Shown piece by piece: positions 34,758 through 38,023 of a DNA stretch of 64,000 nucleotides. Made by a program: the position numbers and the translations under genes. Origin of the DNA: Verrucomicrobiota bacterium (GTDB lineage: Bacteria; Verrucomicrobiota; Verrucomicrobiia; Verrucomicrobiales; Akkermansiaceae); the NCBI GenBank assembly GCA_030835305.1, contig JAURPJ010000015.1, forward strand, positions 124,001 through 188,000, written 5' to 3'. How positions within the stretch are numbered: position 1 is the first letter of the stretch; each line of letters begins with the position of its first letter. The notes beneath the pieces were generated by a model. It ran no database searches. It was not told the origin of the DNA and worked only from the letters and a program-made list of their open reading frames with translations.

Positions 34758-34790
34758 TTGACAAAAATGAACTTTCAGTAAATACTGAAA
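34758..34790 (+). promoter_or_regulatory. Sigma70-type promoter overlapped by palindromic operator
   Basis: TTGACA (34758-34763), a 17-base spacer and AATACT (34781-34786) form a near-consensus promoter for the regulator gene. A perfect palindrome TTTCAGTAAATACTGAAA (34773-34790) covers the -10 element. The predicted start site, about 34793, is next to the ATG at 34795, so the transcript would be leaderless or nearly so. A near-identical palindrome lies at 35365 before the DUF393 gene. This layout suits autorepression by the GbsR-type protein. Confidence 0.8.
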
Positions 34791-34794
34791 ATTG

Positions 34795-35316
34795 ATGGAG
34801 GAAGAAATTGTCAAACTTGAAGAGGCACGTGAGGAGTTCGTGGCCCAATGGGGGATTATGGGGGCCCAGTGGGGAATCAATCGGACGATGGCTCAGATTC
34901 ATGCGCTTTTGATGACAGCCCCCGAGGTTATGAGTACCGATGAGGTCATGGAGACTCTAGCGATTAGCCGGGGAAACGCTCACACCAATCTCAAGGACCT
35001 TGTGAGCTGGGGGTTGATCCGGATCGTCACCAAAAAGGGGGAACGAAAGGAATTTTTCGAGGCCGAGAAAGACGTCTGGGAAATCTTCAGGCGGGTTGCG
35101 CGGGAGCGTAAGCGGCGCGAGATTGATCCGGCGCTTGAGACTCTAAGAAACTGCAAAGCAGCGTCTGAAGACATGAAGTCAGCCGAAGGGAAGGCGTTCC
35201 ATGATCAGATGGGCCAACTCGAAGATTTTGTGAGCTTCGCCTCAAAAATGGGGGATCGCGTCGCTTCGATGCAGCACGGGAAGGCGATCAAACTAGCGAT
35301 GAAGTTCTTCAGCTAG
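34795..35316 (+). CDS. GbsR/MarR-like winged-helix transcriptional regulator
   Basis: 173 residues from ATG at 34795; a TTG one codon upstream is also in frame. The N-terminal helix reads ARERFVAQWGI-like (AREEFVAQWGIMGAQWGIN), then RTMAQIHALLMTAPEVMSTDEVMETLAISRGNAHTNLKDLVSWGLI, the GbsR-type winged helix with recognition helix SRGNAHTNLKDL. KKGERKEFFEAEKDVWEIF follows. C-terminal helices likely mediate dimerisation or ligand sensing. The palindromes over its own promoter and before the next gene indicate it represses itself and the DUF393/MBOAT operon. The effector is unknown. Confidence 0.88.
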   Translation: MEEEIVKLEEAREEFVAQWGIMGAQWGINRTMAQIHALLMTAPEVMSTDEVMETLAISRGNAHTNLKDLVSWGLIRIVTKKGERKEFFEAEKDVWEIFRRVARERKRREIDPALETLRNCKAASEDMKSAEGKAFHDQMGQLEDFVSFASKMGDRVASMQHGKAIKLAMKFFS

Positions 35317-35364: not shown

Positions 35365-35382
35365 TTTCAGAAAATACTGAAA
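35365..35382 (+). promoter_or_regulatory. Second copy of the palindromic operator, before the DUF393 gene
   Basis: TTTCAGAAAATACTGAAA differs by one base from the palindrome over the regulator promoter at 34773. It lies 29 bases before the DUF393 ATG. A good -35 is not evident; ATGACA at 35342 is too far from the AATACT at 35373. The repeat of an 18-base element in two promoter positions is strong evidence for a shared regulator. Confidence 0.75.
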
Positions 35383-35410: not shown

Positions 35411-35896
35411 ATGAATCTCCCAATGTATGTCAATTCGATCGAAGTTTATTACGATGGTCGCTGCGGAATGTGCTGCACCTTCCATGAGTGGATCAATCGT
35501 CAGACGCGGGCCTTTAAGATTCAATTTATTCCGTATCAGTCACCGGTTGCCGAGGAGGTTTTCCCGGGAGTCGGGACCCTCGATCCTGCCCGTGAAATGA
35601 TTGTCCGGACGGACGAAGGTGCAATTTTCCGGGGAGCCGAGGCTTGGGTGTGGTGTCTCTACAGTTGCGCCGATCACCGTGCATTGGCCCGTCGGCTCGC
35701 CAAGCCCGTGATGCTGGCGGTGGCGGTCCGGATGTGTCGCCTTCTTGCTTCCAACCGCCATGGTCTTAGCAAGATCTTTTTTCGCCGGAAAGACCGGGAA
35801 GTCCGAGAAACGCTCCACTCGATGGTGCTTCCGGATTGCGACGATGGCGGATGCGCCAGTGATCACGATGAATGGCGCGCGGAGTTGATGCATTGA
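35411..35896 (+). CDS. DUF393 (DCC family) thiol-disulfide oxidoreductase-like protein
   Basis: 161 residues. The N-terminal motif VYYDGRCGMCC has the DCC-family pattern, with C18-x-x-C21 as the likely redox pair. The following residues show a thioredoxin-like layout (IQFIPYQSPVAEEVFPG, then MIVRTDEGAIFRGAEAWVWCLY), standard for DUF393. The C-terminus is Cys-containing (VLPDCDDGGCASDHDEW). Function of the family is largely unknown. It is the first gene after the second operator and probably starts an operon of four or five genes through the MBOAT protein. Confidence 0.85.
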   Translation: MNLPMYVNSIEVYYDGRCGMCCTFHEWINRQTRAFKIQFIPYQSPVAEEVFPGVGTLDPAREMIVRTDEGAIFRGAEAWVWCLYSCADHRALARRLAKPVMLAVAVRMCRLLASNRHGLSKIFFRRKDREVRETLHSMVLPDCDDGGCASDHDEWRAELMH

Positions 35897-35934
35897 AACT
35901 TCACCCACCCAAACCCCAGACCAGTAAACAAAAA

Positions 35935-36024
35935 ATGATCACTTGGATAAAAAAACTCTTACGCCGGGCGGATGACCGCCACCGGTCAAGACCGCGTCGC
36001 CTGACCAGACTCATGGAAATATGA
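35935..36024 (+). CDS. Possible 29-residue Arg-rich peptide
   Basis: ATG at 35935 starts a frame of 29 residues: MITWIKKLLRRADDRHR, then SRPRRLTRLMEI. It lies between the DUF393 gene and the first membrane gene, with its stop 4 bases before the next ATG. An amphipathic start followed by Arg-rich sequence is plausible for a small membrane-associated peptide. Size makes chance occurrence quite possible. Confidence 0.3.
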   Translation: MITWIKKLLRRADDRHRSRPRRLTRLMEI

Positions 36025-36028
36025 AACG

Positions 36029-36436
36029 ATGAATGCTGAATATACGATTATTCTCCTTCGTCTGGCCGGGTTGATTTGTGTAGGCTTGGCCGTGGCCAAT
36101 TTTGTGGTAGCACCGCGGCTTGGGTATGCCAGAAGCCTGGCCGGTGCCGAGAAGTTGGTCCGTCAGATTTTCTATGTGCACTGTGGTTATATCGTCATGC
36201 TCATTTCGGGACTTGCGATTCTCTGCCTCGGTTGGCCGCACTTGTTTTTGGAAGGCGGGATGTCAAAGGTAGTGAGTGGCTTTTTTACGGTCTTTTGGGC
36301 AAGCCGGGTAGTGGTTCAACTGACTTACTACGATTCTGAATACCGTCGTCGCGAGCGATTCTGGGATGTTTTCTTCCTGATGGTGTTTTTCACCCTGACG
36401 CTTGTTTTTGGCGCCGTCTTTTTGTTCGAAAGATGA
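36029..36436 (+). CDS. Four-helix membrane protein of unknown function, copy 1
   Basis: 135 residues with four predicted membrane segments: IILLRLAGLICVGLAVANFVV, YIVMLISGLAILCLGWPHLF, a segment around SGFFTVFWASRVVVQL, and VFFLMVFFTLTLVFGAVF. Conserved phrases: FYVHCGYIVMLIS and FWASRVVVQLTYYDSEYRR. The next gene codes for a sequence-related protein (YAAYILASHLFFAILSLGF and WWSVRVYLQFFGFD align with these). The two probably act as a pair with the MBOAT protein. The stop overlaps the next start by 4 bases (ATGA). Confidence 0.75.
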   Translation: MNAEYTIILLRLAGLICVGLAVANFVVAPRLGYARSLAGAEKLVRQIFYVHCGYIVMLISGLAILCLGWPHLFLEGGMSKVVSGFFTVFWASRVVVQLTYYDSEYRRRERFWDVFFLMVFFTLTLVFGAVFLFER

Positions 36437-36861
36437 GGGAGGTTTTGAATTACGGTTTGTTGTTTGCAGGGCTTGGGTTGCTTGTCCTGACGGTTGCAAG
36501 TTTTTGGATCCCCCGGATTCTGGGTTGGAAGGAGAAGCTTGCCGATCTGAGTCCGCTGATGCGGGAACTCTTCTGGACGTATGCGGCCTACATTCTTGCC
36601 AGCCATTTGTTCTTTGCGATTCTTTCGCTGGGTTTTCGAGATTGGTTGTTGAGTGCGAGTCCGGCTGCTGCGGCGATGTCGGGATTTATTTGTTTCTGGT
36701 GGTCCGTCAGGGTGTATCTTCAGTTCTTTGGCTTCGATCTCGCGGAGGTTAAAGACACTCGTTTCAATCGGCTTGCGAAGCATTTGCTAACTCTGCTCTT
36801 TTTATATCTCATGACCTTCTTTGCGATCATGGTTTGGTGGAATCTGGGAGGCGGAGGATGA
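36433..36861 (+). CDS. Four-helix membrane protein of unknown function, copy 2
   Basis: 142 residues, about four membrane segments, related to the preceding protein. Aligned features are LGWKEKLADLSPLMRELFWTYAAYILASH against LVRQIFYVHCGYIVML, and WSVRVYLQFFGFDLAEVKDTRF against ASRVVVQLTYYDSEYRRRERF. Both gene junctions (36433-36436 and 36858-36861) are ATGA overlaps, so translation of three membrane genes is coupled. It could be a scaffold or substrate-delivery partner for the acyltransferase, an inference from gene order. Confidence 0.75.
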   Translation: MREVLNYGLLFAGLGLLVLTVASFWIPRILGWKEKLADLSPLMRELFWTYAAYILASHLFFAILSLGFRDWLLSASPAAAAMSGFICFWWSVRVYLQFFGFDLAEVKDTRFNRLAKHLLTLLFLYLMTFFAIMVWWNLGGGG

Positions 36862-37739
36862 TTTGGATTGTCGTTCTGATCTTCCTTGGCCTGCTTTTCG
36901 CGAGGTTGAAGTTTTCCATGTGGATTGCCTGGATTTTAGTTCTTTTGTCGTTGTGGTTTGCCAACCATATCCTTTTGTCCGCTGATCCGATTTGGCGAAT
37001 GGTGGGAATTTGTGGCGTGCTTCTCGCCGGGATGAAAGGTCTCGTCTATCGGGCGTGGGGCGGCCATCTCAGCTGGCGCCGTTACCTTGTTTTTTGCTTG
37101 GGTTGGTTCGGAATGGATCCGGCGACATTTGCAAAAACCCGGAGGAACCTGGTTTGGAAGGAAGATGTCGCTTTGGGGTGCGTTTTGATGGTGACAGGCA
37201 CTTTGGGAGCTTGGCTGGTTTGGGGAATGGAGTGGCGTCAGATTCTCGTGATGTTTTTGCCGATGAGTCTCGGGTTTCACTTTGGAGCGCTTCGAGTTCT
37301 CAAGGGGGGGCTCCGGGCGGCCGGCTTCCCAGTGCGCACCTTGTTTCCGAATCTTCTGAAAGCACGCGGAGTAGCGGATTTTTGGAGTCGAAGATGGAAC
37401 GTTGGATATTCGCAAATGATGCAACGGTTGGTGGGAAGGCCGATTGGAGGCTTGTTGGGACGCGAGGTGGGGACGATGGCAGTCTTTGTAGGGTCGGGGC
37501 TCCTCCACGAGCTTGCCATTACCTTGCCGGTGGAAGCGGGTTATGGTCTGCCAACCGCATTTTTTACGGTGCATGGCCTGCTGGTGGTCCTGGAGGGAAG
37601 ATGGGGGAGACCGCTTGGAAAGATTCCAGCCCTCCTTCTGGTTGCCGTGCCTCTCGGGGTTCTCTTTCCCCCTGAGTTTCAAACCCAGGTGATTGCGAGA
37701 TGCCTCCGGATTTTCGATTTCATCGGCCCCGTGCTTTAA
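36858..37739 (+). CDS. Membrane-bound O-acyltransferase, wax-synthase-like
   Basis: 293 residues from ATG at 36858, chosen for the 4-base overlap with the previous stop. Multiple hydrophobic segments span the protein. FWSRRWN (175-181) corresponds to the FWxxRWH motif of plant-type wax synthases, and SGLLHEL (213-219) contains the MBOAT catalytic His. RPIGGLLGREVG lies between them. The family transfers acyl chains to alcohols, sterols or other hydroxyls at the membrane. Acceptor unknown. It ends the operon controlled by the GbsR-type regulator. Confidence 0.75.
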   Translation: MIWIVVLIFLGLLFARLKFSMWIAWILVLLSLWFANHILLSADPIWRMVGICGVLLAGMKGLVYRAWGGHLSWRRYLVFCLGWFGMDPATFAKTRRNLVWKEDVALGCVLMVTGTLGAWLVWGMEWRQILVMFLPMSLGFHFGALRVLKGGLRAAGFPVRTLFPNLLKARGVADFWSRRWNVGYSQMMQRLVGRPIGGLLGREVGTMAVFVGSGLLHELAITLPVEAGYGLPTAFFTVHGLLVVLEGRWGRPLGKIPALLLVAVPLGVLFPPEFQTQVIARCLRIFDFIGPVL

Positions 37740-37810: not shown

Positions 37811-38023
37811 ATGGCAATCGAAATTGAATATTGCGAGCAATGAAACTATCGTCCCGAGGCAGACCGTGTGTCGGCCGAAATTGAGAAAACCGCCGGTCAA
37901 AAAGTGATTTTGGTTGGAGGAAGTGGGGGGATTTTTGAGATTCGTCGGGATGGCGAAGTGATTTGGAAGAAGGAGAGAAGCGGGCACTTCCCGCTTCCCG
38001 GCGAAGCTGCCGCGCTCTTTTGA
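37811..38023 (+). CDS. Candidate SelW-like (Rdx family) selenoprotein with in-frame TGA
   Basis: 70 residues if TGA at 37841-37843 is read as selenocysteine. The start MAIEIEYCEQ is followed by TGA, then NYRPEADRVSAEIEKTAG. Later VILVGGSGGIFEIRRDGEVI and KKERSGHFPLPGEAAALF match the Rdx (SelT/SelW/SelH) fold: EIEYCxxC, GGxFEIxxDGExIW, GxFP. The family redox motif is CxxC or CxxU, and the TGA falls exactly at the second position (C8-E-Q-U11). A hairpin suitable for a bacterial SECIS lies just downstream (37854-37874). ATG at 37811 lacks a good Shine-Dalgarno. Frame and length (70-90 expected) fit. Alternative: a nonsense-mutated Cys homologue. Confidence 0.7.
37854..37874 (+). promoter_or_regulatory. 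Candidate bacterial SECIS hairpin
   Basis: Beginning 14 nt from the U of the in-frame UGA, CCGA pairs with UCGG, then GCA pairs with UGU (one G-U wobble), with a single G-G mismatch between the two helices. The apical loop GACCG starts 22 nt after the UGA and has G in first position. This matches the known model for bacterial SECIS elements (upper stem plus small loop with a G at position 1 or 2, about 16-37 nt downstream). The stem is short. Confidence 0.5.

Follow-up and report, generated by a model that had tools for sequence, protein, structure and literature searches.

In the dlt and alginate acetylation operons an MBOAT, DltB or AlgI, is encoded alongside an acyl-carrier protein or an SGNH/AlgX-like partner. 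The operon described here is like these in combining an MBOAT with other operon products, and DltB matches the fold of its MBOAT at Z 14.5, but no acyl-carrier protein or SGNH/AlgX-like partner was seen, the fold is nearer to that of DGAT1 and the companions are other ones. With the wax-synthase-like PF13813 proteins and the DGAT1/ACAT branch the MBOAT shares the fold (Z 17.5 to DGAT1) and the Asn/His catalytic pair (RWN...SGxxHE), whereas it differs from them in being bacterial, just 293 aa long and flanked by membrane proteins in an operon, and its identity to DGAT1 is approximately 14%, a likeness at fold level that does not fix the acceptor. DCC1-like (DUF393) proteins, characterised by a DxxCxxC motif and a domain of about 110 residues, are represented by a protein with the same features, which differs in sitting in an operon of a putative repressor, membrane proteins and an MBOAT.

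For the GbsR family of MarR-type regulators Mj223 serves as the structural model, the four studied members are all repressors, an aromatic cage is the inducer-binding site in the osmostress subgroup, and several GbsR groups are without an assigned process (PMC6207618). An AT-rich inverted repeat serves as the operator of GbsR (PMC7396694). The regulator found here, REG, resembles GbsR, OpcR, OpuAR and CydE in its homology to the Mj223 template and in its AT-rich inverted-repeat candidate operator, but is linked to an MBOAT operon and not to the uptake or synthesis of compatible solutes, and it scores below the CudC cut-off. Literature searches on DUF393 with MBOAT, on DUF393 with DUF2071 and on bacterial MBOATs in Verrucomicrobia/Planctomycetes found nothing; the chemistry is of a known kind, and the gene assembly, the membrane protein family and a small protein of the operon appear undescribed.

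Layout of the operon and its small protein

The window, meaning the whole stretch of 64,000 nucleotides that was analysed, comes from an Akkermansiaceae-type MAG of the Verrucomicrobiota (4.45 Mb, 133 contigs, 96.9% complete), whose named relatives are Akkermansiaceae and Verrucomicrobiales MAGs. A phosphoglycerate kinase gene lies upstream, followed head to tail by REG, DCC, a 29-aa ORF, MP1, MP2 and MBOAT, all on the plus strand. The features are as follows.

34773 to 34790, no strand: candidate operator 1 (palindrome TTTCAGTAAATACTGAAA), lying 4 bp ahead of the start of REG and downstream of a TTGACA box
34795 to 35316, plus strand: REG, GbsR/MarR-type regulator, likely start ATG 34795 (PDB 1ku9, E 1e-11)
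35365 to 35382, no strand: candidate operator 2 (palindrome TTTCAGAAAATACTGAAA), located between REG and DCC
35411 to 35896, plus strand: DCC, DCC1-like (DUF393), thiol-disulfide oxidoreductase-like protein (PF04134, E 1e-12; DGRCGMC motif)
35935 to 36024, plus strand: new small protein MITWIKKLLRRADDRHRSRPRRLTRLMEI of 29 aa, conserved in the genus, with pN/pS and third-position excess as evidence
36029 to 36436, plus strand: MP1, four-TM protein of an apparently undescribed family, without a Pfam/NCBIfam family, paralogue of MP2
36433 to 36861, plus strand: MP2, four-TM protein of the MP1 family (invariant W90, R93 and Q97; model pLDDT 91; tree)
36858 to 37739, plus strand: MBOAT, MBOAT_2-family O-acyltransferase of 293 aa (PF13813, E 9e-9; N181/H217; DGAT1 fold match)

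MP1 and MP2 overlap by 4 bp (ATG 36433 against a stop at 36436), and so do MP2 and MBOAT (ATG 36858 against TGA 36859-36861), the likely MBOAT start being ATG 36858 rather than TTG 36834. An earlier note on this DNA had DCC, the two membrane proteins and the MBOAT all joined by stop/start overlaps; this is true of the latter two junctions and not of DCC, which has its stop at 35896 and is separated from MP1 by 132 bp. The 29-aa ORF occupies this gap, beginning 38 nt downstream of DCC and stopping 4 nt short of MP1. The genes that the note placed at 35411-37739 are present, but the operon is larger, as the regulator and the candidate operators lie upstream and the small protein had been overlooked.

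Homologues of MITWIKKLLRRADDRHRSRPRRLTRLMEI with 27-29 aa were found in 13 genus genomes at E <= 3.1e-12, with W4, R10, R22, L23, R25 and E28 invariant. The nucleotide changes are mostly in third positions, and pN/pS is 0.34 for seven 29-codon sequences and 0.29 for three shorter ones. The protein is basic, possibly amphipathic, and judged by these substitutions it appears to be an undescribed product with purifying selection acting on it. In G014, G016, G023 and G025, which have lost DCC, the MPs and MBOAT (G016 keeps a broken DCC start), it still stands after REG; among these lineages alone the constraint is weaker, and the retention may be due to chance. That the 132-bp gap is a remnant of the F5 gene of related loci was ruled out, since L065, L177 and L181 have both the ORF and an intact F5.

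Downstream of the operon, at window positions 37811-38023 on the plus strand, a SelW-like selenoprotein gene with an in-frame TGA and a CEQU motif was observed, which a normal gene caller would miss. With the TGA read as Cys it reaches 52 bits against TIGR02174 (cut-off 34), 22 genomes from the genus and the family have the same single TGA, and the home genome encodes SelB and tRNA-Sec (anticodon tca). Its membership in the operon was ruled out, as it is present in many genus genomes lacking the MBOAT and elsewhere is on a different contig.

The regulator and its candidate operators

REG belongs to the GbsR family by its homology to Mj223/GbsR (PDB 1ku9, E 1e-11) with an N-terminal wHTH. Against the CudC model it reaches E 9e-14 and 51.6 bits, short of the cut-off of 218, and by this equivalog cut-off it would fall outside the GbsR osmostress subgroup (CudC/GbsR/OpuAR).

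The candidate operator is an 18-bp palindrome, TTTCAG-N6-CTGAAA. Palindrome 1 is located 3-4 bp before the REG start with at most one mismatch in all 20 aligned family loci (18 perfect and 2 with one mismatch; the L032 row took the REG start 3 nt downstream), and palindrome 2 is located 20-54 bp after the REG stop with at most one mismatch in 18 of the 20 (10 perfect, 8 with one mismatch, 1 with two, 1 absent). Both are perfect in the home genome. The chance expectation in the window is 0.28 matches at one mismatch or fewer, and among random 60-bp stretches from the same loci 38 of 4000 reached this level, some of which overlap the operators themselves. Two distant loci carry a related palindrome, TTTCTGTCTTAACCGAAA, upstream of REG. 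The start of REG was assigned to ATG 34795 because the spacing to the palindrome is constant at 3-4 nt. A TTGAC box precedes palindrome 1 in most loci, so that the -10 region would lie under the palindrome and the REG mRNA would be nearly leaderless; at candidate operator 2 there is no conserved -35 box, and a separate promoter there is therefore uncertain. The earlier suggestion that the genes share one regulator is strongly supported by this pair of palindromes, conserved before and after REG, and the regulator is the gene just upstream.

Most AT-core palindromes in the genus genomes inspected are at REG loci. In L175, L178, L180 and L182 an AT-core operator-like palindrome occurs without a REG match nearby, and these may be further regulon members. 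GC-core palindromes elsewhere in the genus genomes, whose contexts were partly inspected, were discounted as being probably chance occurrences or parts of coding sequence.

The acyltransferase and its companions

The MBOAT, ACYLTRANSFERASE of the operon, matches MBOAT_2 (PF13813) above the cut-off with E 9e-9. A check set in advance was that the MBOAT motif residues be conserved in alignment, and this was found: N181 (RWN) is present in 40 and H217 (SGLLHE) in 41 of 41 aligned proteins, one member of the alignment being a different MBOAT (L066). In a fold search the predicted model (pLDDT 83, pTM 0.79) matched human and plant DGAT1 first (Z 17.5-15.9), followed by ACAT1, DltB, PORCN and HHAT; the 25 best structural matches are all MBOATs, and the first match outside the MBOATs has a Z of 6.6, down from 11.1. 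A profile search also matched plant DGAT1 (E 3e-4). Fold and conserved Asn/Asp and His residues place the protein in the MBOAT superfamily. Its earlier description as wax-synthase-like fits PF13813, but among solved structures DGAT1 and ACAT come closest in fold, and on the model the name wax synthase is reasonable as a guess. The proposed membrane acyl-transfer system is supported at the level of family and fold (PF13813, DGAT1 fold); its activity and its response to a signal are putative.

Since MBOATs include protein acylators, and HHAT and PORCN match the model at Z 12-14, the enzyme might acylate a peptide or protein like HHAT, PORCN and GOAT, the 29-aa protein being its substrate or regulator; a conserved basic, possibly amphipathic peptide encoded in the same operon 4 nt before MP1 would suit such a role. 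This appears improbable, as the best fold matches make neutral lipids and not acylated proteins, the peptide persists without an MBOAT match in G013, G014, G016 and G025, and it is not recognisable in many MBOAT-bearing loci.

MP1 and MP2 are paralogous (32% identity, E 1e-8), and no Pfam or NCBIfam family was matched by either. MP2 was modelled with confidence as a four-helix bundle (pLDDT 91; helices 2-30, 41-67, 77-100 and 110-137), in agreement with the two related four-helix membrane proteins first described, and in two alignments its residues W90, R93 and Q97 do not vary. The fold search with MP2 against the PDB gave generic helix bundles only and no informative match; TMEM97 and NACHO (Z about 8 to the MP2 model) were not accepted as evidence. 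The two proteins appear to represent an undescribed four-helix family. In the tree the MBOAT-adjacent MPs of all families group together as the MP2 lineage, and MP1 of the Akkermansiaceae and the second MP of other families form separate clades on a weak backbone.

In a sample of 288 genomes from across the phylum the MP profile had matches in 20, and the module is thus patchy. An MBOAT of the operon type adjoins the MP in 12 of the 20 MP-positive genomes, and the others are without it, most of them belonging to one family that has no module genes near. The claim that the paired membrane proteins never appear apart from the MBOAT is true of the window but not elsewhere, where some MP homologues have no adjacent MBOAT. 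The MP homologues of L110-L115, which represent one family of the same class, are found without other module genes around them and perhaps have another role. No match for MP2 or MBOAT was found in plasmid records.

DCC scores 49.8 bits against PF04134 (cut-off 27.8, E 1e-12) and carries DxxCxxC as DGRCGMC, the CxxC being kept in all 18 DCC sequences listed, and it is thus a DCC1-like protein, the thiol-redox-like DUF393 protein of the earlier note. No solved structural relative of DCC was found.

Conservation, decay and proposed function of the module

The module searches covered the home phylum, the Verrucomicrobiota. The MBOAT profile of the home protein was matched in 29 of 97 relatives, and nearly all full-length MBOAT loci have an adjoining MP2. 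Fuller loci of the family read REG-DCC-F5-MP1-MP2-MBOAT-SDR, to which some add DUF2071 or SRPBCC (L059, L060, L062, L064), and the module SDR consists of Epimerase and DUF1731 domains. Loci in other families of the phylum read REG-(weak DCC)-MBOAT-MP-SDR-MP-DUF2071-DoxX_3, or parts of this (L050-L057), or REG-MBOAT-MP-SDR (L097, L100, L104 and L109; L103 with F5). Conservation of the gene set in related genomes, also to be checked from the outset, was therefore found within the family and also, with another gene order, in further families of the phylum. Lacking from the earlier inventory were the 29-aa protein, the operators, the companions in relatives (SDR, F5, DUF2071, DoxX_3) and the recurrent decay. 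Some module genes are duplicated, with two SDRs in L060 and L061 and two DCCs in L064. The operon, its conservation and its regulator, taken together, are regarded as very probably correct.

Whole or partial loss of the module at one syntenic place is common in the genus. REG and the small protein only are left in L169, L170 and L172, REG, DCC and the small protein in L171, DCC with an SDR tail in L174 and L177, and DCC, F5, a truncated MBOAT and SDR in L065, while DCC and F5 are fused into a short remnant in L032. From this pattern of gene content the module is judged to be accessory and lost several times. The home locus is without SDR and F5; a truncated, frame-shifted copy of a module-type SDR, approximately 67% identical to the module SDRs of relatives, was observed on this contig some 65 kb farther upstream (C127, ~95.3-95.6 kb, outside the window). 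These absences, the truncated SDR and the many genus members that lost parts of the locus could mean that the home operon is itself a decaying remnant without present function. This is very unlikely, given that both palindromes are perfect and that there are intact copies of REG, DCC, MP1, MP2 and MBOAT, for which comparison with the nearest relative (G021) gives dN/dS values of 0.11, 0.04, 0.19, 0.09 and 0.26, respectively; on sequence grounds the five products are intact and constrained by purifying selection.

The companions in fuller loci, SDR (Epimerase, DUF1731), DUF2071, which has an acetoacetate-decarboxylase-like fold (PMC4520260), DoxX_3 and SRPBCC, together with the retention of DCC in the MBOAT-less loci L171, L174 and L177, would be in keeping with a module that mainly serves a redox or stress response (DCC, SDR, DoxX_3, DUF2071), with MBOAT and the MPs acting in membrane repair or quinone/terpenoid modification. 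We consider this rather unlikely, as distant families share a REG-MBOAT-MP-SDR core in which DCC is often undetected, and DCC is for that reason not a constant part. DCC and the MP-MBOAT pair are perhaps not one obligate complex either, because MPs occur without MBOAT and DCC or MP-MBOAT have been lost independently.

The reading that we favour, if by a modest degree, is a repressor-controlled membrane operon that O-acylates a lipophilic alcohol. REG, as a GbsR-family dimer, would bind the palindrome over its own promoter and the second palindrome before the operon, and would repress itself and DCC-sORF-MP1-MP2-MBOAT until released by a small-molecule inducer. The MBOAT would then move an acyl group, most likely from acyl-CoA, by way of N181/H217 to a hydrophobic membrane alcohol, with MP2, and in Akkermansiaceae also MP1, as its putative membrane partners. 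DCC may supply a thiol-redox step, the companion SDR of fuller loci may make or modify the acceptor, and the small protein may be a membrane-bound regulator. It is doubtful that the MPs are obligate partners of a DGAT1-like acyltransferase, that the GbsR-type REG controls an undescribed, repressible route of membrane-lipid acylation and that the 29-aa protein, the last output kept in several lineages, is the actual effector or regulator, all of these together.

What is gained is a precisely predicted DNA site for the regulator, a named pair of catalytic residues for the acyltransferase, a linked and apparently undescribed MP family and a hidden small protein that appears to be under selection. 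If the proposed acyl transfer is true, a regulated ester-forming lipid pathway would be added to the Verrucomicrobiota, and a new type of target to the GbsR regulators.
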